Position numbers and translations under genes: made by a program | The notes under the pieces: generated by a model | Database searches by the model: none | Told to the model about the DNA's origin: nothing | What the model saw: only the letters and a program-made list of their open reading frames with translations | In this document: positions 18,147 through 34,765 of the stretch, piece by piece | How positions within the stretch are numbered: the first letter of the stretch is position 1 | How the letters are laid out: each line of letters begins with the position of its first letter | NCBI GenBank assembly: GCA_039555135.1 | Contig: CP114179.1 | Location: 3,596,001 to 3,660,000, forward strand | Length of the DNA: 64,000 nucleotides | DNA from: Phycisphaeraceae bacterium D3-23 | Lineage (GTDB): Bacteria > Planctomycetota > Phycisphaerae > Phycisphaerales > Phycisphaeraceae | Direction of reading: 5' to 3'

Positions 18147-21100
18147 ATGCAAAGAATGAAGACGATGCAGAACACATTGAGTCGGTTTCGCTTGTGGTTG
18201 GTCGCGCTCATGCTGCTGTGCGTGGGAGCTGCACCGTCTGCGCAGGCGCAGGATGACGTTCAGGAAGCACGCACCGTGGCTGCGCCGCGCCAGCCGGAAG
18301 TCGTGATCGACGCGATCGAGGGCGAGATCGACGGGGACCAGCTCGCGGTGGAGGTGGCGCTGACGGTGACGACGTCTGTGCCGGGCCAGTCGATCGAGCT
18401 GCTCGGCGGGGATGTGGTGCTGCGTTCGCTTTCGACGGCGGCTGGCACTGTGATTGTCGGCGAGGGCGCGGGGCTGGAAGCGCCGCCCGCGACGGTGGGG
18501 TACGACATTGAACGCAAGCAGTACGCGCTGTCGCTGCCGACGGCGGGGACGATGGGGCTGCGGATGACGCTGGCGGTGCGCGCTGCGGTGGCGGACCGTG
18601 AGGGGTGGCACGCCGCGGCATGGACGCTGCCCGTGGTGGACCGTCGGCCGATCACGATCACGAGCGGTCAGGCGCAGCTCGAGGTCGCGCTGCCCGGGGC
18701 GGTGCGTGTCGAGCGCGAGGTGGTGGGGGAGGGCGACGACGCGCGGCTGACGGTGTCGGGGCTGCAGGGTTTGGCGGCGGAGCTGGTCGTACGCTGGCGT
18801 GAGACGGTGGGCGACCTGCGGGCGGAACTGGTGCTCTCGAGCGAGGCGAACACACTGGTGTCGGTGCGCGACGGCGGGCTGCGGGTGGATACACTGTTCA
18901 CGTTCGGCATCGCGCAGGGCGAGCTCGATGCGCTGGCGCTGACCGTGCCCGCAGGCCTCAACATCACGCAGGTGCGCGGCGCATCGATCCAGGACTGGGC
19001 GGTCGTCGAGCCCGACGGCGATGGCGGCGAGCGCATGCTGGAGGTGACGCTCCGCCTGCCGCAGTCGGGGCGGTACGCGCTGCAGGTGGTGGGCGAGATG
19101 TCATTGGATGCGTTCCCGACGCGGGTCGAGGTGCCGGTTGTCGCGCCCCCGGCGGGGATCCGTGCGAGCGGGCACGTGTCGGTCGGCACGGCCAGCGCGA
19201 TCGCGCTGGTGGTCGAGCGGTCGTCGGGCCTGACGCAGATCGACGCGTCGGCGATGCCGCGTGTGTCGCTGCCTTTGGATGAATCACGGGCGCTGCCGGG
19301 CGCGGGGCCGGGGGGCAAGGCGTTTTACTACAGCTATGCGACGACGCCTTACGCGGCGACGTTGTCGCTGGACCGTGTCGTGCCGGCGGTCGACGCGGAG
19401 CACCGGGTGGTGATCGATGCGCGCGAGGACGGGCTGGTGTACGAGACGCAGGTCGGGCTGGAGGTGCGCGACGCGCCGGTGCGCGGGGTGGCGCTGACGC
19501 TGCCGGACGGGTTCACAGTGCTGCGGGTGTCGGGAGACGGGGTGTCGGATTTCCAGGTGCAGCCGGGCGAGGGCGGGGCGTCTGCGGTCTTGCGTGTGCA
19601 GTTTGCGCAGCCGCGGATCGGGCAGGTGACGATTGGGGTCACGCTGGAGTCTGGCGACCCGCCGTTGGACGCGACGCGCGGGGTCGGCGGTCTATCGCTG
19701 ATCGGCGCGGCGAGCGAGCGGGGCGTTGTCGTGGTGTCGGTGGCCGAGGGCTTGTCGGTAGAGGTGGAGGAGGCCGAGGCGCTGCGTCAGGTGAATACCG
19801 GGTCGGCGCCGTTCACGGTCGCGCGGGCGCAGTCGGCCTATCGCTTCCGCGACAGCGCGTGGTCGCTTCGCCTCATCACGCATCAACGCCCCGCGACGAT
19901 CCGGGCCGAGGCGTTCCAGCTCGTCTCCATGGGCGAAGGCGTCGCGTACGGCAACGTCGCGATCAATTACTTCATCACCGGTGCGCCGGTCGATGAGCTC
20001 TGGGTGCGTGTCGATCCGCGCGTCGAGAACGTGCAGTTCTTCGGGCGCGATGTCCGGCGGTTTGATGTCGATGCGGACGACCCGGCCCTCTGGCGGGTCC
20101 AGCTCCAGCGCCGGGTGATCGGCGACTACAACCTCGGCGTTGGCTACCACCAGCGCTACGCCGACGGCGGCGAGGTACTGGTCGGCGGGGTCTCGGCCGC
20201 GGATGTGCAGACGCAGTCGGCCTACGTCGCCGTCGCCAGCCCGCTGGACCTCGAACTCGCCGAGGCGGCGGTGCCCGTCGGCGGCGCAGCGCCCGCAGGG
20301 CGCCCGACACTGCTCCCGATCGCGCACGAAGAGCTCCCGGCCAACTACCGCCTGCTCGTGACCGCGCCGTTGCTGCGTGCCTACAAGGCCGTCGGCCCCG
20401 CCAACGCCGCGGGGCTCACGATCGATGCCTACGACCGCGGCGAGCTCACGCCGGTCATCATCGAGCTCGCACAGATCCACACTCACATCGCGCCGGGCAA
20501 CCCATCGGGCGGCACATCCATCGGCGGCGATGCCGAGTCGACTACACGCATCCGCTACCGCATCAAGAACGCACGCAGCCAGTTCCTGCGGTTGCAGATG
20601 CCCCCTGGGGCGACCGGCTGGTCGGTGCATCTGATCGGTGTCGATGCGTTGGGTGAAGAGACGCGCCAGCGGCTGACAGTTTCGACCGACCCCGCCGACG
20701 GCCGGCTGATGGTCCCGCTGCCCCGGCCGCTCGACCCTAACCGCCCGATGACGATCGAGCTCGCCTACGGCCAGGTCCACGCCGGCGATTCGCGGCAGGT
20801 GTCGCTTGCGGCACCGGTGGCGGATGTGGCAAGCACGTACGAGGTGTGGACGGTCCAGTCGCCCGAGGACTGGGCGCTGCGGCTGGGCGACAGCACTGGC
20901 ACGACGATGCTGCCCGAGCCCCGCGCGATCGAGCGCGGTCGGCTCGGCGGTGTGTTGTCCGAGGTCGGCGATGCCTGGCGTTCTGCATTCGACGCGAAGG
21001 TGCGCTCGGGCCGGCTGGTGTTTGCCTTGCTCGCCGGGGCCGCGATGGTCTTGTTGGTGTTCCTGCTCTATCGGCCCGCGGCGATGTTTGCCGCGGCTGG

Positions 21101-24100
21101 GGTCTTGCTTGTACTTGTCGTGTGGGTCGGTGCGCATGCAGGGGGCGATCGCGGGATCCACCCCGGTTTGTCGGTCGCCGAACCGCTGGACACGATGACG
21201 TGGACGCGCGTGATCGATCAGGGCGGCGAGCAGGGCGCGGCCGTCGCGGTCGAACTGGTGGAGGAGCATTCGTTCTACATCGCGACGCGTTCGCTGATCG
21301 CATTGGGCGCGCTGTCGGTCGCGGCGCTGCTGGCGGGCTTGCTGTGGCGGCCTGGCCGGGCGGTGCTGGTTGCGCTGGGCTTGGCGGGGGCGATCTACAC
21401 GGCCAGTCGTTGGCCGCCGCTCGCCGAGCCGCTGGGTCATACGCTGACATGGGGGGTGCCGGCGCTGTTGTTGGTGGTGTTGTTGGGTCTTGCGGCGCGG
21501 CGATTGGCGAAGCTCCGGCCCAGCGTGTCGGTCGGCCCTGCGGCTGCGTCGCTCTCGCTGGCGCTGCTTGGGGCGGTGGGCTGTGCGCAGGACGAGGCGG
21601 TGGTCGTCACGCCGCCGATTGCGGACACAATGCTGGACCGCGTGTCGTGCGAACTCACGGCGTCCGATGACGCGATGCTTGTCGTCTATAACGTACGGTT
21701 CACGACGGACAAGCCGGCGCGTTTTGAGCTGATCGGGGACGGCGCGATCCTGCAGCCCGGCGCTGAGATGAGCAGCGACAAGGTGCTTGTCGAGCGGTCG
21801 GGCCCCGGCTATGTCATCGTCGCCAGGGAGGCTGGGCGGTACGACGTCGCGGTACAGTTCCTCATGCCGCTGGACCCGGCCGATGTGCTACGGGCCCGCG
21901 CGTTTCGGCTGGCGATGCCGCCCGCGCTGAGCAACACCGTGACCGCGACGCTGCCGGGCACGGGGCTGGACGTCGCGGTGGATCGGGCGATCTTGTCATC
22001 GAGCGAAGAACGCGCCGATGAGACGGTGGTGTCGGCGACGCTGGGTCCGGCGGACAACCTGTCGCTGCGCTGGCGGCCGCGCGACCGTCGGCGGGACCTG
22101 GAAGAGACCGAGTTTTATGCGACGTCGCGCTCGCTGGTCTGGCTCGCGGCGGGGTCGGCGCAGGCGCTCCATGACATCACGCTCGAGGTGGCGCAGGGCC
22201 AGGTCACCGATATCGAGCTCGCGCTGCCTGAGAATATGACCGTGACGCAGGTGAGCGGCGAATCGCTGGGGGCTTGGCGGTTCGACCCGGAAACGCACAC
22301 GCTCGAAGCCAAACTCACCCGCCCCGCGACGGCGGGCTATCGGCTGCTGCTGACGACGCAGACGCCGGTCGATACGCTGCCCTACACCGTCGACGCTGGG
22401 GCGCCGCGCGTCGTCGGCGCGGCGCGCCAGCACACGACGCTCGGGCTGGGTACCGTGGCGTCGGTCTATGCCACGATCGATGATGGGCCGACCGCGATGA
22501 ACGAGCAGGACTTTGGCCGCGACGCCGCCGTGCTGCTGCGCCATGCGCAGGGCCGGGCGCCCGCGCCGCCCGAGGTGCGCTTCGCGTGCCGGCTGGAGCC
22601 CGACCAGCGCGTGCGGGCGACGGTGCGCGCGGTGCTGCCCGAGGTGCGTTCGGCCGAGTCGGCCGGGTTCACGATCGAGGAGGAGCGGCTGGTCTACACC
22701 AGCGACTTCATCATCGCGGTCTCGAAGGCCGGCGTATTCAGCGCCCGGCTCCGCATCCCCGAGGGCTACGATATCGATGCGCTCACGGCCGGCGGCGCGA
22801 CGCACTGGGACGAAGAAGTGGGCGGCGACGGCGAGCGCTTCGTGACGCTGCACTACGCGACCCGCGTGACGGGGAATCTGCCGGTGCAGGTGCGGCTGAG
22901 CCGGGCGATCACCGACCCGCCGGCGGAGGTTGACGTGCCGCGCATCGAGGCGGTCGGGTCACTGAAACACACGGGCCAGGTCATCATCTCCGCGGCGCAG
23001 GGGATGCGTTTGTCGATCGCGCAGCGCGACGGGATCAGTGAGGTCAACCCGCTCGAGCTGGGCATCCGCACGCCCGGGGTGCTCGCCGCCAACACGCTGC
23101 GCCCCGAGTGGTCGATCCAGCTCGCCGTCGAGCAGGTCCAGCCACGCATCACGGCCGACACGCTGCACGTCGCGGCGGTGTCGGACGGCGCGGTGCGGCA
23201 CACGGTCTACCTGCGCTACACCCTGCAGCACGCCGGGGCGAAGGTCTTTCGTGTACGGCTGCCCGCCGATGCGCTCGGTGTCCGATTGGTGGGCCCCGGT
23301 GTCGCGCGACGTACGCCGGTCGAGGGCGAGCCCGGCGTGTGGGAAGTCGAGCTCTCCGCCAAATGGTTTGATCGGCCCTACCCGCTGGCGGTGCAGTATG
23401 ACACGGCGTTCGACCCTGACGCGGCGTCCGTTCAGATCGACCCGGTCGTCGCGGTGGGGACGGACCTGCAGCGCGGCTACCTCGCCGTGTTGTCGGGTGG
23501 CCGGGTCGAGGTCGAGGCCGATGCACAGGCCGGGGGCATGGTGCGGGCCGACCCGCGTGCGTTGCCGTCGGCGTTTGGTGCGGGCGACCTGTCCGAGGCG
23601 GCGCTGTGTTACCGCTGCCCCTCGGCGGGCTATGGTTTGACGCTGGGCGTGAGCCGCTTCGATAACGCCGAACAGGACCAGGCGACCGTGCTGAACACAC
23701 AACTCACGACCGTGCTCACCGCCGACGGTGAGTCGATCAACCGCGCACAGGTCGAGCTCCGTGTCGGCGGGAAGCGGTACCTGGAGACGCGCTTGCCCGC
23801 CGGCGGTCGGCTGCTCGCGCTGCGCGTCAATGGCCGCGCGGCCGAGCCATCGACACGCCTGGACACGGCTGCGAACGAGACGGTCTACCTCGTCCCGCTC
23901 GAGTCGGCGGTGATGCAGGATGCGCATGTCCGAGTCGATCTGGTCTACGCTCAAAGATCGCCTCTGCCAACGAAACTGGCAAGCCCCCTCGCGCTGCAGG
24001 GCCCGCGATTTGACCTGCCGCTGCGAGATGTGCGGTGGACGGTCTACGCGCCCCAAGGGTTTGACTACGAACGTTTCGAGGGCAACGCGCTGTACCACGA

Positions 24101-24811
24101 GCCCGCCGGCGGTGAGCCGGCGGTCGTGCGGTTTACCCCCGAGGACTACGACGCGGTCGCGCTGGCGCAGCAGCAGGCCCGTCTGCTCGCGGCGCAGCAG
24201 TTCCAGCACGACGCCTCGATCCTCGCCGACCGGGGCGACCCGCGCGCGCGGCCCGCGCGGCGCTGGAGCAGGCGATGTACTTCTCGCTGGGCGACCGGGC
24301 GCTCAATGAGGATGCGCGGGTGCAACTGCACCGGCTGTCGACCGACCAGGCGGTGGCCGGGCTGATCGGTTCGCGCAGCCGGCTGCGCGACCTCGATGGC
24401 GGGCGCGTCCCGCTGCCGACCGCCAACGGCGCGGGCGATGAGCGCGTGCTCAACCTCAGCCGACGCGATTTGCAACAGGTCCGCGCCGCGCTGAGCCGGC
24501 CCGATGGCGAGAACCTCGCGCTGATCGCGACACGCTTCATGACCACCCAGGCCGTCGCGGGCGCGCGGCCGGTCCCGCTGGTCGTCGAGATGCCGCTGCG
24601 GGGCCAGGTGCTCGAGTTCAGCCGGCCTGTGCAGGCCCAACCCAACGCAGCGCTGGAGGTAAGTTTTTGGGCCAAGCCGCAGCCCGACGCGACCGGCCGG
24701 GCAGCGGACTACACGCCGTGGATCGTGGCGGGGGTGCTGCTGGTGTTGCTCGTGCCGCTGCAGTGGTTTGCGACGCGGCGACGAAAAGCGGCGTCACCGA
24801 CAGGTGTATAA
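18147..24811 (+). CDS. Giant membrane protein of unknown function; one frameshift near 24238-24256
   Basis: I do not recognise a family for this roughly 2220-residue protein. A signal peptide (LWLVALMLLCVGAAPSAQAQ) leads to about 900 residues of beta-rich extracytoplasmic sequence. A cluster of membrane spans follows at about residues 957-1130, including LLAGAAMVLLVFLLYRP and VPALLLVVLLGLAARRL. Then come about 1000 more beta-rich residues and a C-terminal span (WIVAGVLLVLLVPLQWF) with a basic tail. The two large halves have similar composition and may be an ancient duplication. The frame breaks near 24238-24256 in an alternating CG run, where one base seems missing. In the original frame the sequence becomes arginine-rich and stops at 24365, whereas the shifted frame continues sensibly to 24811. 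It starts 15 bases after the VWA gene, so it is probably its functional partner. Confidence 0.65.
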
Positions 24812-25224: not shown

Positions 25225-26280
25225 ATGCCGACAGATGTCAAGACCAAACGACTGATGGACTACGCCGACTGCGGCGGGTGAGCGGGCAAGCTTCCTGTCG
25301 AAGCGCTCGCGCAGTTGCTGCGAGAACTCCCCACCCCCAACGACCCGGCCCTGATGATCGGCGTCGAGCACTTCTCCGACGCGGGGATCTACAAGCTCAC
25401 CGACGAGATCGCGCTGGTCCAGACACTCGACTTCTTCCCGCCCGGCGTCGACGACCCGTTCACCTTCGGCCAGATCGCCGCAGCGAACTCGCTCAGCGAC
25501 GTCTACGCGATGGGCGGCACGCCCAAGACCGCCATGAATATTGTCGGTTTCCCGGATAAGGAGCTGCCGATGAGCGTGCTCGGTGAGATCCTCAAGGGCG
25601 GGGCCGAGCGTGTCCACGCCGCGGGGGCCGTGGTGCTCGGCGGGCATTCGGTGCGCGACCGTGAGATTAAGTTCGGGCTCTCCGTCACCGGCATCGTCCA
25701 CCCCGACCGCATGATGAACAACGAGAGCGCACAACCCGGCGACGCCGTCGTGCTGACCAAGGCGCTGGGCACGGGCTTTATCAGCAGCGCCATGAAGAAG
25801 GGCGAAGCGCCGGCCCCCGCGATCGCCGCGGCGACAGAGAGCATGGTGATGCTCAACCGCGCGGCGAGCGAGGCCGCGATGGCGAACGGCGTGCGGGCCT
25901 CGACCGACATCACGGGCTTCGGCCTCGCGGGCCATGCCAGCGAGATGGCCGAGGGGTCGGGTGTGACGATCGAGCTCCACCTGGACAAGCTGCCCCTGCT
26001 CGACGGCGCGCTCGACATGCAGCAACAGGGCTTCACCTCCGGCGCCAATAGGAGCAATCGCGAGTTCCTCAAGGACCGCATCGCCATCAACGGCACCTCC
26101 GGCGGACACGCGCACCTCCCGTTTATCTACGACCCCCAAACCTCGGGCGGGCTCCTGCTGACCGTCGCCGAGGACAAGCTCGACGCGCTGCTCGACGACC
26201 TCAAGCAACGCGGCAACATGGTCGCGGCCCCGATCGGTCTTGTGCGTGACAAGGCCGAGTGTGACCTGATCGTTCTCTGA
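25225..26280 (+). CDS. selD: Selenide, water dikinase (selenophosphate synthetase), selenocysteine-containing
   Basis: SelD makes selenophosphate from selenide and ATP, the selenium donor for selenocysteine and selenouridine. The gene encodes 351 residues if the in-frame TGA at 25279-25281 is read as selenocysteine. The N-terminus is DYADCGG-Sec-AGKLPVEAL. Sec19 and Lys22 have exactly the C-x-x-K spacing of the essential Cys17 and Lys20 of the E. coli enzyme. Downstream are family motifs: QTLDFFPPGVDDPFTFGQIA, AANSLSDVYAMGG, GGHSVRD, STDITGFGLAGHASEM and the C-terminal DPQTSGGLLL. AAGGAG lies five bases before ATG 25225. A hairpin starts immediately after the TGA. Without read-through the product would be 18 residues, and the rest keeps full family length, so this is not a broken gene. 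It heads the selD - ABC transporter - selB - selA - tRNA-Sec series. Confidence 0.95.
25279..25310 (+). promoter_or_regulatory. Selenocysteine UGA codon and bacterial SECIS-like hairpin in selD
   Basis: Directly after the TGA, GCGGGC (25282-25287) pairs with GCTCGC (25305-25310; one G-T wobble). A two-base AA bulge follows, then GCTTC (25290-25294) pairs with GAAGC (25300-25304) around a CTGTC loop. An interrupted 11-pair stem with a small apical loop starting right at the UGA is the form expected of a SelB-binding element. Confidence 0.82.
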
Positions 26281-26308: not shown

Positions 26309-27265
26309 ATGCTACGACGTACGTTTACCAAGCTCTCACTGCTCGCCTGCATCGGCACGTTTACCCTCGCGGGCTGCGGCGGGTCCAGTACCGACACCGA
26401 GCTTACCAACCCGGACATCGCTCAAGACACGACAAACGCGTTCAGCAAGAACACGGATCAAGAGCTGGTTTTCTCCGCGATCCCCGACACCGCGGGCAGC
26501 GAGCTGACCGAGAAGTTTGACAAGGTTGCCGAGTACCTCTCCGCCGAGCTCGGCGTCACCGTGCGCTACCAGCCCTCGCCCGACTACGGCGCCTCGGTCG
26601 AGGCGTTCACCAACGGCGACATCCACTTCGCGTGGTTCGGCGGGCTCACCGGCGTGCAGGCGATGCAGGCGGTGCCCGGCTCGGCCGCGATCGTGCAGGG
26701 CGAGGCCGACCCCATGTACTACAGCTACTTCATCGCGCACACCGACTCGGAACTGCCCGAGTGGAACGGCGAAGACGGCCAGCCCTTCCCCGACGCGATG
26801 GGCGGCATGTCGTTCACCTTCGGCTCGGAAAAGTCGACCTCGGGCCGGCTGATGCCCGAGTTCTTCATCCGTGAAAACACCGACCAGTCGCCCGCCGAGT
26901 TTTTTGACGGCGAGCCCGGCTTCTCGGGCAGCCACGACAACACGGTTTCGCAGGTGAACTCCGGCGCGTACATGGTCGGCGCCGTGAACTACAAGGTCTA
27001 CACCCGGATGTCGGAAGCCGGCGAAGCGCCCAACGCTTACATCGTCTGGAAGACCCCGTACTACGCCGACTACAACCTGACGGCACGTGGCGACCTGGAC
27101 GAAACATTCGGCGAGGGCTCGATGAAGAAGCTGCAGGAAGTCCTCGTGGCCCTCGACGACCCCGCGCTTCTGTCCGCGTTCGACCGTGACAACCTGATCG
27201 AGGCGACCAACGGCGAGTTCCAGGGCATCGTGGATGTCGCGGAAAGCCTCGGATTTCTTGAATGA
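26309..27265 (+). CDS. ABC transporter substrate-binding lipoprotein, PhnD-like (putative selenium oxyanion uptake)
   Basis: This 318-residue lipoprotein has a signal peptide ending in the lipobox LAGC, with the lipid-bearing cysteine near residue 23. The mature protein follows the phosphonate/PhnD-like binding fold: ELVFSAIPDTAGSELTEKFD, then LGVTVRYQPSPDYGASVEAF, FAWFGGLTGVQAM, FTFGSEKSTSGRLMPEFF and VNSGAYMVGAVNYKVY. AAGGA lies seven bases before the ATG. It sits between selD and selB, and its stop overlaps the ATPase start. PhnD-like proteins next to selD are annotated in existing family collections as putative selenate-binding proteins. The true ligand (selenate, selenite, or phosphonate-like) is not shown by the sequence. 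Confidence 0.85.
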   Translation: MLRRTFTKLSLLACIGTFTLAGCGGSSTDTELTNPDIAQDTTNAFSKNTDQELVFSAIPDTAGSELTEKFDKVAEYLSAELGVTVRYQPSPDYGASVEAFTNGDIHFAWFGGLTGVQAMQAVPGSAAIVQGEADPMYYSYFIAHTDSELPEWNGEDGQPFPDAMGGMSFTFGSEKSTSGRLMPEFFIRENTDQSPAEFFDGEPGFSGSHDNTVSQVNSGAYMVGAVNYKVYTRMSEAGEAPNAYIVWKTPYYADYNLTARGDLDETFGEGSMKKLQEVLVALDDPALLSAFDRDNLIEATNGEFQGIVDVAESLGFLE

Positions 27266-28053
27266 GTGACTCTGCCGGCACACCCGTGTTTCAACTCGAC
27301 CAGGCCACCGTCCGCTACGGCGCATTAGATGCCGTGGCGGGCGTGGCCTTGTCGGTTGCGCGGGGTGAGCGAGTCGCGCTGGTTGGGCCCAGCGGTGCGG
27401 GTAAGACGACGCTGCTGCGGCTGCTGGGTGCATCGTTGCGGGCGACAGAGGGGAGCGTCCGCATCTTTGACGAAGATGCTGCGGCGCTGGGTTCGGCAGA
27501 GTTGCGTAAGTTGCGCAGCCGGATCGCGACCGTTCCGCAACACCTCGCGCTGGTGCCGAATCTGCGCGTGATCCGCAACGTGCTGCTCGGGCGTGTGGGT
27601 TCGCAGCCGCTGCTGGGCTCATTGCGGGCCACGCTCTTGCCAGGCAACGAACGCACGCTCGAAGTCCACGAGGTCCTTGAGCGTGTGGGCATCGCGGACA
27701 AGCTCTACCAGCGCACGGACAAGCTCAGCGGAGGCCAGCAGCAGCGCGTCGCTGTAGCGCGGGCGCTGTACCAACGCCCCACTGCGCTGCTCGCGGACGA
27801 GCCGGTGTCGAGTGTCGACCCATCCCGCGCGCGGTCGCTGGTCGAGCTGCTCGACGGCATCGCGACCGAGCGGTCGCTGACGCTCGTGATGAGTCTGCAC
27901 AACCTCGACCTGGCGCGTGAGTTCTTCCCGCGTCTGGTGGGGATGCGCGCCGGCCGCGTTGTGTTTGATCTGCCGGCCGACGAGATCTGTGAGGCGCAGT
28001 TCGAGGCGCTGTATCAGTTAGACGAGCGCGAGCTCATGGCGAACGGGGCTTGA
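27262..28053 (+). CDS. ABC transporter ATP-binding protein (PhnC-like)
   Basis: This 263-residue ATPase powers the transporter. It has Walker A GPSGAGKTTLL (about residue 37), a Q-loop region ending TVPQHLALVPNLRVIRNVLL, signature LSGGQQQRVAVARAL and Walker B ALLADEPVSSVD, then the switch histidine in VMSLHNLDLA. PhnC-type ATPases carry this same LSGGQQQR and PVSSLD-like sequence. It overlaps the binding-protein gene by four bases (ATGA), indicating translational coupling. A 139-base gap holding a paired palindromic element separates it from the first permease. Confidence 0.92.
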   Translation: MSDSAGTPVFQLDQATVRYGALDAVAGVALSVARGERVALVGPSGAGKTTLLRLLGASLRATEGSVRIFDEDAAALGSAELRKLRSRIATVPQHLALVPNLRVIRNVLLGRVGSQPLLGSLRATLLPGNERTLEVHEVLERVGIADKLYQRTDKLSGGQQQRVAVARALYQRPTALLADEPVSSVDPSRARSLVELLDGIATERSLTLVMSLHNLDLAREFFPRLVGMRAGRVVFDLPADEICEAQFEALYQLDERELMANGA

Positions 28054-28192: not shown

Positions 28193-29062
28193 TTGCCACC
28201 CCGCCCGTTCCCGATCGGGACGCGGGCGCTTGTGCTGTTGTCGGTCGCGGTGGCGGGGGTGCTCGCGGCGTGGTATCTGGGGTTGTCGCCGGCGAATCTT
28301 GTCCCCGCGCCCGACGCACGCGGGCTGGTCGTCGATGTGCTGGGCTCGGCGGTGTCGCCCGCGCTGGTTTATGAATCGACCGACCTCCCTCCCGACATCG
28401 ACCCGCTGCTCATGCGTGTCGCCGGTGCTGCGATACGTACGCTCGTCTACGCGGTTGCGGCGATGTCGCTCGTGGTCTTGTTCGGCCTGGTCCTTGGCTT
28501 CTTTTCTTCAACCGCGTGGTGGGCGGACGAGCCTGTGGCGAAGGCGGGCCCGATCCAGACCTTCATGCGGAGCACCGTGCAGCCAGGCGTGTATGTGTTC
28601 GCACGTTGTGTGATCGCCGTGATGCGGTCCACGCACGAGCTGCTCTGGGCCGTGCTCTTCATGGCCGCGATGGGGCTGACCCCACTCGCCGCCGTCGTCG
28701 CGCTCGCGATCCCGCATACCGGCATCCTCGCCAAAATCTTTGGCGAGATGGTCGATGAGGCGCCACGCGACAGCTCGAAGCAGCTCCGCGATATCGGGGC
28801 TTCGCCGCTCCAGCAGTACCTTTTTGGATTGCTGCCACGCGCAAGAAACGACCTGGTCGCCTACGGCTACTACCGCTTCGAGTGCATCGTCCGCGGCTCG
28901 GCTGTGCTCGGGTTCTTCGGTATCGAGACGCTGGGCAAGTACATCAAGGATGCGTTCGACAACCACCACTACCACGAGATGTGGACGTACATCTATGCGC
29001 TCTTGGTCCTCGTCGTGCTCTTCGACCTCTGGAGCGGTGTCATCCGCAGGAGGTTGTCGTGA
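28193..29062 (+). CDS. ABC transporter permease (PhnE-like), first of two
   Basis: This is an inner-membrane permease of up to 289 residues. It has an N-terminal span (ALVLLSVAVAGVLAAWYLGL), further spans around AAMSLVVLFGLVLGFF and LLWAVLFMAAMGLTPLAAVV, and the ATPase-coupling loop DEAPRDSSKQLRDIGASPLQ. The start is uncertain. The frame opens only after a stop at 28148, and the first candidate is TTG 28193, without a clear ribosome site. A pair of ATGs at 28147 and 28150 lies in the wrong frame, so an indel near the start is possible. The second permease begins inside its stop codon (GTGA). Two distinct permeases suggest a heterodimeric channel. Confidence 0.82.
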   Translation: MPPRPFPIGTRALVLLSVAVAGVLAAWYLGLSPANLVPAPDARGLVVDVLGSAVSPALVYESTDLPPDIDPLLMRVAGAAIRTLVYAVAAMSLVVLFGLVLGFFSSTAWWADEPVAKAGPIQTFMRSTVQPGVYVFARCVIAVMRSTHELLWAVLFMAAMGLTPLAAVVALAIPHTGILAKIFGEMVDEAPRDSSKQLRDIGASPLQQYLFGLLPRARNDLVAYGYYRFECIVRGSAVLGFFGIETLGKYIKDAFDNHHYHEMWTYIYALLVLVVLFDLWSGVIRRRLS

Positions 29063-30030
29063 GCGATCGTTTGGCCGAGATCCAGAAGCTTCGCCGCGCG
29101 GCGCCGCGTGACTGGGTGGTGCGTGGGAGTATCGCGGTGCTGGTACTTGCGGTCGTATGGGTGTGGCTGTTCAGCAGTGTCGCCCTGGTCGGCATCGAGG
29201 CGGGTGCCGTCACGGGCGATCCCGGCTGGTCGCTGAGTGTTCCGAGCGACCAGATATCGCGGACATTCAGTCCGCAGCGTGCCGAAAATCTGCAGCGTTT
29301 TGTCGGCAAGCTGTCGCCGCGCGTCAAGCCGGAGGACGGTACGGTGCTGGGCTGGCTCTGGCGGCTGCTGAGCGAGAAGGGGCTGTCGGCGATGGCGACG
29401 ACACTCGCCGTGGCGGTGTCGGCGATTGTGCTGGCGGCGCTCTTCGCGCTGCCGGTGCTCTGGCTGGGGTCGCGCAACCTCGCACGGGCCGACGCGTTGG
29501 TCGCGGGCGGCCGTCGGCCCGGCGCGTTGACGCGCTGGCGCTGGCGCAGCCAAGTAGCCGGAGTGCGCGGGCTGTTCGTATTCCTGCGGGCGTTGCCCGA
29601 GTATGTCCTGGCGTTTGTGCTGGTCGTGCTGGGGCCAGGCGCCTGGCCCGCAGTGCTGGCGCTGGCGATCCACAACTTCGGCATCCTCGGCCGCCTGGGC
29701 TCGGAGGTCGTCGAAAACACCGACCCCGCCGCCGCACGCAATGCCCGCGCGGCCGGCGCGACCCGTACGCAGATCGCGACCCTGGTCCTGTTCCCCCAGA
29801 CGCTCTCGCGCATGCTGCTCTACTTTTTTTACCGCTGGGAATCGTGCGTCCGCGAGTCCGTCGTGCTCGGGATGCTCGGCGTCGCGACCCTGGGCTACTA
29901 CATCCAGAACGATGCCCGCGCCCGCATGCGCTACGACGAGATGCTGCTCTACCTCATGCTCGGCGCAGCGCTGGTCTTGGCCGGCGACCTCGTCTCTGCG
30001 CTCGTGCGCAGGTGGGTCCGCAACGCCTAG
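29059..30030 (+). CDS. ABC transporter permease (PhnE-like), second of two
   Basis: A 323-residue permease starts at GTG 29059, preceded by a strong AGGAGG at 29048-29053 and overlapping the previous stop by four bases. An N-terminal span ([19 protein letters not shown]) is followed by about 90 residues of likely periplasmic sequence. Then come the transport spans ([20 protein letters not shown] and later ones) and the coupling loop [20 protein letters not shown]. The extra periplasmic segment makes it longer than the first permease. It ends 23 bases before selB. Confidence 0.88.
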
Positions 30031-30053: not shown

Positions 30054-32048
30054 ATGACCACAACCACCCAACCTGCAACCCGCGAACTCGTCCTCGGCAC
30101 GGCCGGGCACATCGACCACGGCAAGACGTCGCTGGTCCGCGCGCTCACCGGCGTCGACTGTGACCGTCTGCCGCAGGAGAAGAAGCGCGGGATCACAATC
30201 GATCTCGGTTTCGCCGAGCTCGAGCTCGACGGGATGCGCCTCGGTGTCGTCGACGTGCCCGGGCACGAACGGTTTGTGAAGAACATGCTGGCCGGGGCGT
30301 CGGGGATCGACCTTGCCTTGCTCGTCGTCGCGGCGGACGACTCGGTGATGCCGCAGACGCGTGAGCACCTCGCGATTCTTCAGCTGTTGGGGATTCAGAA
30401 CGGGCTTGTGGTCGTGACCAAGAGCGACACCGTCGAGCCCGACTGGATCGATATGGTCGAAGACGACATTGCGACGCTGACCGAGGGCACGTTTCTCGAG
30501 AGCGCGCCGATCGTGCGGACTTCGGCGACAACCAGTGCAGGGATCGATGCGCTCAAGGCGACGCTGGCCGATCTCTGCGAGCAGGTGCAGCGTGACCCGG
30601 CGGGGGAGCTGTTCCGCATGCCGATCGATCGGTCGATGACGTTCCCCGGCGTGGGCACGGTCGTCACGGGCACGGTCTGGCAGGGCCGGGCGACGATCGG
30701 CGGGCAGGTCGAATGGCTGCCTTCGGGTGAGAACGTTCGGCTGCGCACCGCACAGACGCACGGCCGAGACGCCGAGGCGATCCACCGAGGCCAGCGCGCG
30801 GCGGTGAATCTCGCGGGTGTGCATCACAGCGCCGTGCATCGCGGCCAGGAACTCGCCGAGCCGGGGTACCTCAAGCCAAGCCGGGTGTTGACGGTGTATC
30901 TGCGCGTGCTTGCGGAGAGCCCGTTGCCGCTGAAGCACCGTGCGCGGATCCGGCTGCATTTGGGCACGCAAGAAGTGATTGCGTCGGTGCACTTGTTGGA
31001 GGGTACGGCGGTGCAGCCGGGCGAGTCCGCGTATGCGCAGTTGTTCGTGTCCGAGCCTGTCGTGGCGACGGGCTTGCAACCGTTTGTGTTGCGTGCAGAG
31101 TCGCCGGTGGTGACGGTGGGGGGCGGCGAGGTGTTGGAGCCGTGCGCCGAGCGGATCGCGCGTCGGCACCGGGAGACCATCGCGGCGCTGCCGGACCTAC
31201 ATGTACGCGATGCGCAGCGGCGGGCCTCGGCGGTGATCCGTGGGTATGGGCGGACGCCTTGGACCGAGCTCGACCTCTGCCGTGACGCCGCGGTATCGCC
31301 GGCCGAGGCGGAACAGCGTGTCGCGGCGCTCGTGAAATCGAAGGTGCTCCTGCGTCTGCCGATGACGGCGCAGCGCGACGGCCTGATACACAGCGAGGCG
31401 GTCGACTGGATGCAGAGGCGGGTGCTGGGCGAGCTGTCGAAGATGCACGAGCAGTCCCCGCTCGCCGCGGCATTCCCGGTGGACCAGCTCTTTGCCCGGC
31501 TCGAGTACCTCGGGTCGCCTGCGCTCCTGTCGGCGGTGCTCGCCCGCATGAATCAGGCGGGCCAGGTCGTCGGCGGCGAACGGATGGTCAGCCACGGCGA
31601 CCGGGCCCCGAAACTCACGCAGGCCCAGCGGCGCATGAAGCAGGAACTCCTCGACGCGATCGACACGGGTGAACTCACCCCCCCGACACGGAAGGAACTC
31701 GCCAAGGGGCTCTCGACAGGCGAGGCCACGATCAAACCGATCCTCGAGCTCTTGGTGCTCGAAGGCGAGCTTTTGCACATGGACCAGGACATGTACCTGC
31801 ACCGCCGCCACGAGCCGACGCTGCGCGAGCGCGTCGCAGGGATCGCGTCGCTCAAGGGCGACGGCGCAGCGGTAAGTGAGGTCCGGGAGGCCCTGGGCGT
31901 ATCGCGGAAATACACCATGCCGATGTTGCAGTACCTCGACCGGATCGGATTCACGCGGAAAGAGGGGGACATGCGGTTCTTGGCCGCGACGCCGGATCAG
32001 CCGATAGAGGATACAGACGCCGAGCCGGGCACGGAGGAAGACGCATGA
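30054..32048 (+). CDS. selB: Selenocysteine-specific translation elongation factor SelB
   Basis: SelB is a GTPase that binds selenocysteyl-tRNA and the SECIS hairpin and delivers the tRNA to UGA on the ribosome. The N-terminal G domain is complete: [19 protein letters not shown] (G1), [11 protein letters not shown] (G2), [13 protein letters not shown] (G3) and VVTKSD (G4). EF-Tu-like barrels follow, including [20 protein letters not shown]. The C-terminal half has the helical, charged sequence of SelB's tandem winged helices, including [20 protein letters not shown], which bind the SECIS. At 664 residues it has normal length. Its stop overlaps the selA start (ATGA). Confidence 0.97.
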
Positions 32049-33481
32049 GCCAGACCGCCGACAATACGCAGGCCATGATGCGGTCGCTCCCCGGCGTCGA
32101 CCGGCTCGCCGCCGACGCGGCGCTCGATCCGTGGCGCGAACGGCTGCCCGCAGGCGTGATCAGCGCCGCCGCGCGCGATACGATCGACGCGGTCCGCGCG
32201 TCGCTGCTCAAGACCAAAGACGCATCGGACAAAGGCAATGCGCCCGCGCCCGTCGATGCTCTGTACGCCGACCTCGTGCAGCGCGTGGTTGCCCGGCTCG
32301 AGGCGCTCGCGCAGCCGCCGCTCGCATCCGTGATCAACGCGACAGGCATCCTCATCCATACCGGGCTGGGCCGATCCCCCCTCGCGCAGCGTGCGGTCGA
32401 CGCGCTCGCCGATGTCGCGGCGCATTACGCGCCCGTCGAGCTCGACATGCCCTCCGGTGCACGCGGGCAGCGTAATGACATCGTCCGCGAACTGCTCTGT
32501 GAGCTGACCGGGGCCGAGTCGGCGATCGTCGTCAACAATACCGCCGCCGCGATGCTGCATGTGCTCTGGGTCGTAGGCAAAGGGAAGAACGTCGTGCTCT
32601 CGCGCGGCGAGATGGTCGAGATCGGCGGCAGCTTCCGCATGCCCGACGTCATGGCCGCCGCCGGCGTCACCCTCTGCGAAGTCGGCACGACGAACAAGAC
32701 CCGCCTGGCCGACTACGCCAACCACACCGACGACGACACGGCCGGCTACCTCAAGGTCCACCCCAGCAACTACCGGATCCAGGGCTTCACCGCGACCGTC
32801 GAAATCGAAGACCTCTGCAGGCTCGGCCGGGAACGCGGCGTCGCTGTGATCGACGACATCGGCTCGGGCGCGATGTTCGACTATGGCCCTTGGGGGCTCA
32901 GCGGCGAGCCGGTCGCGCGTCGCTCCGTGCAGGCCGGCGCGGACCTCGTCTGCTTCTCGGGCGACAAGCTGCTCGGCGGCCCGCAGGCGGGCATCATCGT
33001 CGGCAAGAAAACATGGATCGACCGCTGCGAAAAACACCCGCTGATGCGTGCGCTGCGTGTCGGCAAGCTCACCCTCGCCGCGCTTGGCGCCACGCTGCAA
33101 CTTCATCGTGACCCGAAGATGGCGGCCGAGCATATCCCGGTGTTGCGGGCGCTGACGGCTTCAACGGATGCCCTCCGCGTCCGCGCCGAATCATTGGCGA
33201 AACAATTCGGAGCCGACGAACGCATCGCTGAAGCAGGCGTGGTCGAGACCGAGGCCTACATGGGCGGCGGCTCGAACCCGGCACAGGCCGTGCCCAGCGT
33301 CGCCGTCCGCCTGCGTGCAGCGCACCTCGGCGAAGACGAGCTCGCAACACGCCTGCGCACCGGCAAGACACCGCTCTTGCCGCGCGTCGCCGACGGCGCG
33401 CTCTGGCTGGATGTCCGCACGGTCTTCCCCGAGCAGGATGCGCAGCTGATTCTGGCCGTGCTGGACGCGGCAAACGCCTGA
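32045..33481 (+). CDS. selA: L-seryl-tRNA(Sec) selenium transferase SelA
   Basis: SelA is the PLP enzyme that converts seryl-tRNA-Sec to selenocysteyl-tRNA-Sec using selenophosphate. The 478-residue sequence has SelA hallmarks: VINATGILIHTGLGRSPLA, SAIVVNNTAAAMLHVLW, the conserved VLSRGEMVEIGGSFRMPDVM, and the PLP-lysine motif LVCFSGDKLLGGPQAG. Length and motif order are those of full SelA decamers, not of the shorter SelA-like proteins found outside Sec loci. It overlaps selB by four bases and is followed 45 bases later by tRNA-Sec, its substrate. Confidence 0.97.
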   Translation: MSQTADNTQAMMRSLPGVDRLAADAALDPWRERLPAGVISAAARDTIDAVRASLLKTKDASDKGNAPAPVDALYADLVQRVVARLEALAQPPLASVINATGILIHTGLGRSPLAQRAVDALADVAAHYAPVELDMPSGARGQRNDIVRELLCELTGAESAIVVNNTAAAMLHVLWVVGKGKNVVLSRGEMVEIGGSFRMPDVMAAAGVTLCEVGTTNKTRLADYANHTDDDTAGYLKVHPSNYRIQGFTATVEIEDLCRLGRERGVAVIDDIGSGAMFDYGPWGLSGEPVARRSVQAGADLVCFSGDKLLGGPQAGIIVGKKTWIDRCEKHPLMRALRVGKLTLAALGATLQLHRDPKMAAEHIPVLRALTASTDALRVRAESLAKQFGADERIAEAGVVETEAYMGGGSNPAQAVPSVAVRLRAAHLGEDELATRLRTGKTPLLPRVADGALWLDVRTVFPEQDAQLILAVLDAANA

Positions 33482-33526: not shown

Positions 33527-33623
33527 GGGAGTGTCAGCACGACTGGTGTCGGCCACGGTCTTCAAAACCGCTGTGAGGTCTGTAACCCAGGTCTCAGGTG
33601 GGTTCGATTCCCATCCACTCCCG
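33527..33623 (+). tRNA. selC: tRNA-Sec (anticodon UCA)
   Basis: This 97-base gene folds as a tRNA with anticodon TCA at 33562-33564 in the loop CTTCAAA, which decodes UGA. GGGAGTG at the 5' end pairs with CACTCCC (33616-33622). The D arm is CGAC-TGGT-GTCG. The T arm has TTCGATT between TGGG and CCCA. A long variable arm (TGAGGTCTG pairing with CAGGTCTCA, with two G-T wobbles) is the feature expected of tRNA-Sec. The eighth acceptor position looks mismatched (T against C). CCA is not encoded. Confidence 0.95.
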
Positions 33624-33945: not shown

Positions 33946-34611
33946 CTACTTCCGGCGGCGGGCGATGAACAGCCCGCCCAGCCCCAGCAAGGCGAGCGAG
34001 CCGGGCTCGGGCACCTGATTGACACTGACGGCGTCAATCAGCAGGTCGTTATCGATCGAAGAACCGGCGCCGAGGTTGTCAGAGATCGACAGGGTGGTGG
34101 TCGTGCCGGTGGCGACGAAGTTGAACGTGTGCGTCGTCCACTCCCCGTCGGTCGCGCTTTGGGTGAGGGAGTTAATGCCGCCGGCATCGACGGTAACGCT
34201 CTGCTGGCCGGCCGAGAATGCCCCGGCGATGGAGAACTCGACGGTGTATTCGAGGCCGACGGCGGTGGCGAGGTCCTGGGACAGGACGCCGGAGCCCGAG
34301 CCCTGGTTCGCGTTGAAGGCGACGTACTGCGAGCCTTCACGGGCTTCGTTCGTGCCGGGGGCTACCGCGCCGGTCAGCGAGACACCGAAGAAGCCGCCGT
34401 CGTGCAGGAAGACATTGGATGCGCCGCCGGTGCCATCCAGAGCACGGGTCACGGTCCATCCGGACAGGGCGGTGTCGGCGTCGGTGCTGGTGTCCGTCGC
34501 GATGTCGGACAGCTCGAAGCCGCCGTTCGTGACGAGGTCTGCGCCCGCGAGGCCCGCAGTTGTGCCACAGCACAATGCGGTGGCCAGCATCCGGTAGGTT
34601 CGATTCAACAT
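33946..34611 (-). CDS. PEP-CTERM sorting-domain protein
   Basis: This 221-residue exported protein has a signal peptide (MLNRTYRMLATALCCG onward) and begins its mature part with DLVTNGGFELSD, common at the start of carbohydrate-binding-like domains with a jelly-roll fold. The C-terminus VPEPGSLALLGLGGLFIARRRK, read as a VPEP motif, a hydrophobic span and an arginine-rich tail, is a PEP-CTERM signal processed by an exosortase. Start ATG 34611 is preceded by GGAGGAA. The long upstream leader on the same frame is not part of it. A promoter candidate at 34793-34766 would drive it. Confidence 0.88.
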   Translation of the reverse strand: MLNRTYRMLATALCCGTTAGLAGADLVTNGGFELSDIATDTSTDADTALSGWTVTRALDGTGGASNVFLHDGGFFGVSLTGAVAPGTNEAREGSQYVAFNANQGSGSGVLSQDLATAVGLEYTVEFSIAGAFSAGQQSVTVDAGGINSLTQSATDGEWTTHTFNFVATGTTTTLSISDNLGAGSSIDNDLLIDAVSVNQVPEPGSLALLGLGGLFIARRRK

Positions 34612-34765
34612 GGCAATTCCTCCAAGAGGGGAGTGGGTGAAAGGTGCTCGGAACATCCCGGGCACAGAGAGATCGGTATGCGTGGCATTGGGTACGGCCG
34701 GGTATGCGTCGGAGCCGTATGCCGGGTGAGTCGGGGGCGTCAAGCAGTCTGACGCAGAAAATAAT

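Follow-up and report, generated by a model that had tools for sequence, protein, structure and literature searches.

What does an in-frame TGA at codon 19 mean for a gene encoding selenide water dikinase (SelD), and where in the mRNA would the signal lie that has it read as selenocysteine (Sec)? The selD gene that raises this question lies in a stretch of 64,000 nucleotides (hereafter the window), which covers positions 3596001-3660000 of the single-contig, 4.62-Mb genome of Phycisphaeraceae bacterium D3-23. The initial annotation had proposed that this SelD is itself a selenoprotein and that a SECIS-like hairpin (hairpin 1) follows directly after the UGA. Our analysis bears out the first proposal and relocates the signal of the second. 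We are confident that the locus encodes a Sec-containing SelD in a Phycisphaerae sel operon, with the UGA decoded as Sec, and that the recoding signal is most likely another hairpin (hairpin 2), about 30 bases further along and mostly outside the interval first pointed out. The computed evidence for this reading is that a TGA stands at the catalytic residue, that the same array encodes the Sec machinery, and that hairpin 2 is conserved and covaries in Sec forms of SelD but not in Cys forms. The features are collected in Table 1.

Table 1. Features of the selD locus and other TGA-containing genes of the source genome; coordinates refer to the window unless marked as genome coordinates.
Feature	Coordinates	Strand	Evidence or remark
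selD, selenide water dikinase, 351 residues, Sec at 19	25225-26280	+	TIGR00476 profile, reading frame, alignment
In-frame TGA (Sec19)	25279-25281	+	aligned with catalytic Cys17 of E. coli SelD; kept in relatives
Hairpin 1, GCGGGC AA GCUUC CUGUC GAAGC GCUCGC	25282-25310	+	folds; not conserved as such
Hairpin 2, probable bacterial SECIS, CUCGC GC (loop AGUU) GC (U bulge) GCGAG	25306-25324	+	conservation, covariation
ABC substrate-binding protein, PhnD superfamily	26309-27265	+	TIGR04553 "putative selenate", 264.5 bits, cut-off 250
ABC ATPase, PhnC-like; 4-base overlap with previous gene	27262-28053	+	profile match
ABC permease 1, PhnE-like; start codon uncertain	28193-29062	+	profile match
ABC permease 2, PhnE-like; start codon uncertain	29059-30030	+	profile match
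selB, Sec-specific elongation factor, C-terminal winged helix	30054-32048	+	TIGR00475, 361.5 bits; SelB-wing_3
selA, Sec synthase; 4-base overlap with selB	32045-33481	+	profile match
tRNA-Sec, anticodon UCA	33527-33622	+	only match in the genome above the family cut-off
FdhA (formate dehydrogenase alpha), motif AATUHAP	genome 3495465-3497504		in-frame TGA
TlpA/ResA-like protein, motif WUGPC	genome 4520089-4520448		in-frame TGA
AhpC/SelL-like protein, motif HWUPFC	genome 1494710-1495066		in-frame TGA
SelW-like protein, motif CGMUNYKP	genome 2574949-2575155		in-frame TGA

The ATG of selD is preceded by AAGGAG, and its reading frame contains the TGA of codon 19 as its sole internal stop, as had been annotated. 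The product scores 367 bits against the SelD family profile TIGR00476, far above the cut-off of 125, and by family membership it is a putative enzyme for making selenophosphate from selenide and ATP. The alignment (HMMER, PDB 3u0o) confirmed that Sec19 falls on Cys17 and Lys22 on Lys20 of E. coli SelD, so that the protein has the residues by which a SelD is recognized, a Cys or Sec at the catalytic site and a Lys three residues later.

In a search of the class, SelD exceeded the family cut-off in 148 of 397 genomes, and the matches listed include at least 92 genes with one TGA and at least 58 without a stop. The TGA stands at one same place in all 90 examined of the 92 listed genes with one TGA, the window's own included and two contig-edge fragments left out, while the 21 examined of the 58 listed genes without a stop have Cys at the catalytic place. 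Since the same TGA is also present in the same-genus genome G131, it is not an isolated error. Among the matches listed, six relatives (G322, G233, G328, G065, G367 and G358) carry a Sec-SelD and a Cys-SelD together. The Cys-SelD of these relatives lies in a long open frame of 741-807 aa, probably the NADH dehydrogenase-like fusion described in a passage of PMC4561486.

The recurrence of the TGA also bears on the reading of it as a true stop, whether because of an error in sequencing, decay of selD, or a short leader peptide followed by a restart at TTG 25315. A TTG-start ORF (25315-26280) does exist mechanically, but the same TGA in G131 and in every other examined gene of the one-TGA group, together with the intact selA, selB and tRNA-Sec genes, leaves this reading with hardly any credibility. 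A restart at the TTG would moreover lose the catalytic residue and Lys22, and the TTG itself lies within hairpin 2, at a codon that is GTN in most relatives.

The gene is the first of a closely spaced array on the + strand, consisting of selD, a PhnD-like substrate-binding protein, a PhnC-like ATPase, two PhnE-like permeases, selB, selA and tRNA-Sec, and ending at 33622. The components of the Sec-decoding trait, namely SelA, SelB with its C-terminal winged helix and tRNA-Sec, are thus all present. In known systems, the winged helix of SelB binds the SECIS RNA. A simple scan of the + strand between 24700 and 34000 gave no sigma-70-type promoter match, and the terminator-like matches on this strand have weak T tails (nine matches on both strands of this interval, with 5.1 expected), which makes a single transcript from selD to tRNA-Sec plausible. 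Directly beyond tRNA-Sec lies a convergent gene for a PEP-CTERM protein (33946-34743, minus strand); upstream of selD, an open frame of 2072 residues (18147-24365) has no Pfam family at E 0.001. Taken together, the family match, the active-site alignment, the conserved TGA and the Sec machinery encoded 3' of selD strongly support the proposal that this SelD is a selenoprotein.

For the recoding signal, the relatives of the class were used in two sets: a first set of 41 Sec-SelD and 10 Cys-SelD genes, and a held-out set of 49 further Sec-SelD and 11 Cys-SelD genes that was fetched after the predictions had been set down. Hairpin 1, with its interrupted stem starting at the base after the UGA, exists as described and folds at -14.2 kcal/mol. 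The fold is modest, with a z-score ranging from -2.3 to 0.0 depending on the stretch chosen; it was equalled by 7 of 200 dinucleotide shuffles of the 29-mer, 50 of 200 for 42 nt and 93 of 200 for 50 nt, and by 6% of synonymous recodings. In the bacterial SECIS model, as set out in a passage of PMC13188914, the apical loop lies 16-37 nt from the UGA and has a G within its first two positions. Hairpin 1 departs from this model: its loop CUGUC, at 13 nt, is too close to the UGA and lacks the early G.

Comparison among the 41 relatives of the first set likewise gave hairpin 1 no support as a SECIS. The proportion of paired cells was 70.7%, against 69.4% in shuffles, the covariation was 0.140 in both, 245 of 500 shuffles reached the score, and RNAalifold found no structure at this place. 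Both stems form in just 13 of 41 Sec-SelD genes of the first set and 9 of 49 of the held-out set. On the other side, hairpin 1 is kept in the genus mate G131, and sliding its arms lowers the pairing across the 41 relatives to 39-49%. In the Sec forms, the folding of the first 30 nt past the UGA also exceeds that of synonymous recodings, with z -0.75 for the first set and -1.03 (t -6.6) for the held-out set, against -0.37 and 0.36 for the corresponding Cys forms, so that structure in this stretch may matter. Judged from its spacing, its loop and the missing conservation, hairpin 1 is very unlikely to be the functional SECIS, and it is probably not the element read by SelB.

The strongest fold signal was found at nt 24-54 past the UGA, where the mean z-score relative to synonymous shuffles was -1.16 in the 41 Sec-SelD genes and -0.01 in the 10 Cys-SelD genes. 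The conserved stem at this place, hairpin 2, spans the codons for Ala-Gln-Val-Leu-Arg, typically as GCGCAG-GUN-CUGCGC, and its typical loop contains GU and lies about 33 nt past the UGA. When a stem was counted as present if at least 5 bp could form at this place, in either register and with a loop of 3 or 5, it occurred in 39 of 41 Sec-SelD and 0 of 10 Cys-SelD genes of the first set. The held-out set gave 47 of 49 and 0 of 11, which brings the class overall to 86 of 90 Sec-SelD and 0 of 21 Cys-SelD genes. At other in-frame positions, stems of at least 5 bp are found at a rate of about 1-2%, with 42/2132 and 56/2548 positions in the Sec genes of the first and the held-out set, and 11/520 and 5/572 in the Cys genes. 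In the held-out set, the z-score of nt 24-54 was -1.47 for the Sec forms (t -11.8, n=49) and -0.35 for the Cys forms (t -1.4, n=11), t values that are not calibrated, since other stretches of the Sec genes deviate too (nt 72-102, z -0.68, t -3.7, held-out set). The core of hairpin 2 has a probability above 0.5 in 34 of 41 and 42 of 49 Sec-SelD genes, and in 0 of 21 Cys-SelD genes.

The sequences are related, and shuffle counts are therefore not to be taken as probabilities. Over all 41 sequences of the first set, with 6 pairs counted, 82.9% of cells were paired and 8 of 500 shuffles reached the covariation score. In the 28 sequences with a CTG/TTG 3' arm, a subset biased by having been chosen partly on the arm sequence, the pairing rose to 93.4% and none of 500 shuffles reached the score. 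The 12 sequences with a GTG 3' arm, in which the register is shifted by two, provide weaker evidence (84.4% paired, 29 of 500 shuffles). RNAalifold predicted nothing for the first 41 sequences taken together, an alignment that combines sequences of both stem registers and includes one without the element. For the 49 held-out sequences, 89.1% of cells were paired, two-sided changes occurred in 5 of 7 pairs, none of 500 shuffles reached the covariation score, every slid version of the hairpin scored lower, and RNAalifold predicted five pairs of the stem. Examples of compensated arms are GCU/AGC, GUG/CAC, ACG/CGU and UAC/CUA. The GU in the loop had also been predicted beforehand, and was read off the list of held-out sequences without a count. 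Within the class, hairpin 2 is therefore present in Sec forms, absent from their Cys homologues and covarying, as expected of a SECIS. We consider that it is probably the SECIS, to which SelB would bind and on which UGA readthrough would depend, and the Ala-Gln-Val-Leu-Arg motif of the protein appears to have been bent to the RNA.

Outside the phylum, nine plasmid-borne SelD genes, four of the Sec type and five of the Cys type, were picked from 175 matching records. Hairpin 2 recurs in two of the four Sec-SelD genes, those of Terrisporobacter and Cytobacillus, in which the same place holds a stem of 8 bp built from quite different codons. The Sec-SelD gene of Photobacterium has 4 bp there, and that of Peptoclostridium 3 bp, together with another hairpin whose loop lies 20 nt from the UGA. 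At the place of hairpin 2, all five Cys-SelD genes fall short of 5 bp.

The window's own copy of hairpin 2 is a derived form, with TTG where the GTN codon is usual and with an additional bulge. It fits the published model as we applied it, which asks for a loop of 3-9 nt with G in one of its first two positions, a stem of 4-16 bp, a spacing of 16-37 nt and an MFE of at most -7.5: the MFE form has the loop AGUU, a spacing of 31 nt from the UGA to the start of the loop and -10.6 kcal/mol for the 33-mer, and the unbulged form, CUCGC/GCGAG, has the loop GCAGUUGCU and a spacing of 29. This fit is weak evidence, since 4 of 5 Cys genes also contain some other hairpin that passes our script of the model.

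Bases 25306-25310 belong both to hairpin 1 and to the 5' arm of hairpin 2. Hairpin 1 prevails in the free 60-mer, where the full hairpin 2 has a probability of 0.14; this rises to 0.92 if the UGA and the following 6 nt are kept from pairing, as they would be in a decoding ribosome, and to 0.99 if 15 nt are. These properties, and the fact that both stretches fold beyond synonymous recodings in the Sec forms, would suit a joint action in which hairpin 1 serves for slowing down or timing, keeping the 5' arm of hairpin 2 sequestered until the ribosome opens hairpin 1. However, a shorter form of hairpin 2 (GCAG/CUGC), with a probability of about 0.75 in the free 60-mer, is compatible with hairpin 1, so that the two hairpins are not strictly exclusive in the window. 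In most relatives, as the core probabilities given above indicate, hairpin 2 dominates without any masking, and such a switch is thus not general. A joint action of this kind is possible, although we hold it to be doubtful.

On the reading that we prefer, with hairpin 2 as the signal, the SelB, SelA and tRNA-Sec from the downstream genes would decode the UGA at codon 19 as Sec, most likely under the direction of the GU-containing loop about 31 nt past the UGA. SelB would bind hairpin 2, and a ribosome with the UGA in its A site would open the 5' arm of hairpin 1 and thereby free the bases shared with hairpin 2. Without selenium, translation would stop after 18 residues, and the production of SelD would thus depend on selenium and on existing SelD.

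How closely SelD production is tied to its own pathway depends on whether the genome holds a second, Sec-independent SelD. Two SelD-family matches were obtained: the listed one is the TGA-containing Sec form, and the other falls below about 241 bits. No Cys-SelD backup was seen among the SelD matches listed for this genome, that is, above about 241 bits. The second, weak match is likely no SelD, since weak matches of this sort are all that the majority of relatives in the family show. Should it indeed be no SelD, leaving the genome with no Cys-SelD backup, new SelD could be made only by way of the Sec-tRNA that SelD itself helps to produce, and the process would be autocatalytic. A positive feedback of this kind, as read from the sequence, could amount to a threshold, a memory or a simple selenium dependence. 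The idea is not new, as the title of a 1996 paper by Guimaraes et al. already asked about an autoregulatory loop. SelD has also been considered as a possible maintainer of the Sec trait, in passages of PMC13188914 and PMC1794560.

The Sec trait is patchy among the close relatives, as selA lies above the cut-off in 5 of 51 genomes of the family and in 2 of 5 of the genus (present in the source genome, G000, and in G131; not in G411, G415 and the 70%-complete G436). SelD is not part of a pathway that feeds only itself, since a search of a few families found four more genes of the source genome with an in-frame TGA at a Sec-like redox motif (Table 1). The FdhA, TlpA/ResA-like, AhpC/SelL-like and SelW-like products look like selenoproteins from their sequences, and the idea of SelD as the sole selenoprotein of the genome was rejected on their account. 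The AhpC/SelL-like protein scores above the Pfam AhpC-TSA cut-off and below the NCBIfam cut-offs, and its NCBIfam support is thus weak. Candidate hairpins with GU in the loop follow the TGA of each of the four genes, an early loop G having been a condition of the search. TGA-containing TlpA-like and SelW-like genes are present in G131 as well, a TGA-containing formate dehydrogenase was not seen there, and no TGA was found in AhpD-like CMD proteins. The use of selenophosphate for selenouridine was also considered and rejected: neither the source genome nor G131 has a SelU match, so that selenophosphate seems to serve Sec only. Selenoproteins of planctomycetes have been described earlier, in two algal isolates (PMC4807772, in a passage of that paper).

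The four genes between selD and selB may supply the element that this pathway consumes. The binding protein exceeds the curated cut-off of the NCBIfam family TIGR04553, and the order of binding protein, ATPase, permease and permease is the one known for the TIGR04553 and PhnD/PtxB family. The nearest solved structures (PDB) of the binding protein are phosphonate and phosphite binders. We regard the import of a selenium oxyanion by this transporter as putative, and as a lead on selenium uptake. The transporter stands between selD and selB in both genus mates, the source genome and G131. Five genomes of the same order (L040, L041, L042, L045 and L046) have selD-selB-selA-tRNA-Sec without the transporter, and two further stretches from the order (L043 and L044) have selD alone. 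A scan of named genomes with the transporter protein gave one locus only, the G131 contig.

TIGR04553 lies above the cut-off in 2 of 121 genomes of the order, only the source genome and G131, and in 37 of 246 genomes of the phylum. It occurs together with the Sec trait, as selA is above the cut-off in 34 of the 37 genomes with TIGR04553 and in 129 of the 209 without it (Fisher p 2.3e-4, with relatedness ignored and on the assumption that both searches of the phylum drew the same 246 genomes). Around the TIGR04553 copies, no selA, selB or selD match or tRNA-Sec was found at any of 20 loci, fetched as stretches of 4-20 kb from 20 of the 37 genomes. A general linkage of the transporter to sel genes elsewhere was rejected on this ground; the exception is four genomes of one other planctomycete family (L196-L199), chosen as having the binding protein and selA on one contig, in which the transporter lies beside tRNA-Sec and selA. 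In Methanococcus maripaludis, five putative selenium transporters were deleted and none was required, according to a passage of PMC11097638, and a passage of a 2026 review (PMC13188914) states that no dedicated high-affinity selenium importer has been identified in prokaryotes.

Combined, these elements could form a selenium-gated operon, in which a dedicated selenium-oxyanion importer feeds SelD, whose translation depends on selenium through a two-hairpin element switched by the ribosome. We think it unlikely that all of this holds. If it did, a shortage of selenium would cause early termination on selD and lower the downstream genes too, one transcript would contain a translational selenium sensor, and the importer would be the first dedicated high-affinity one for selenium in a prokaryote. 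Irrespective of the gating, a transporter embedded in a sel operon is a direct candidate for prokaryotic selenium uptake.

Set beside known systems, the core of the finding is ordinary, since Sec-type SelD is textbook knowledge and the autoregulatory loop was already raised in the 1996 title. Sec-containing SelD or SPS2 is known, for example, from Haemophilus influenzae and Aquifex aeolicus. Like the known ones, the present SelD has a catalytic Sec with the conserved Lys three residues later; no difference was seen in the protein, and what differs here is its setting, a Phycisphaerae operon into which an ABC transporter is inserted. It is therefore one more member of the well-described Sec-type group, with its SECIS assignment corrected and strengthened. 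That SelD can be a selenoprotein is established, and Sec is found in 19% of the SelD of reference prokaryotes, always at the same position (according to a passage of PMC4561486). A SECIS supported by covariation and common to the Sec-SelD of one class is a cleaner signal than the fold of a single sequence, and the shared hairpin could help in finding selenoprotein genes. Its fit to the Ala-Gln-Val-Leu-Arg codons suggests that the RNA signal shapes the protein sequence. Relative to the bacterial SECIS model of PMC13188914, hairpin 2 sits at the far end of the spacing range, at 29-33 nt, and a second, less conserved hairpin sits between it and the UGA.
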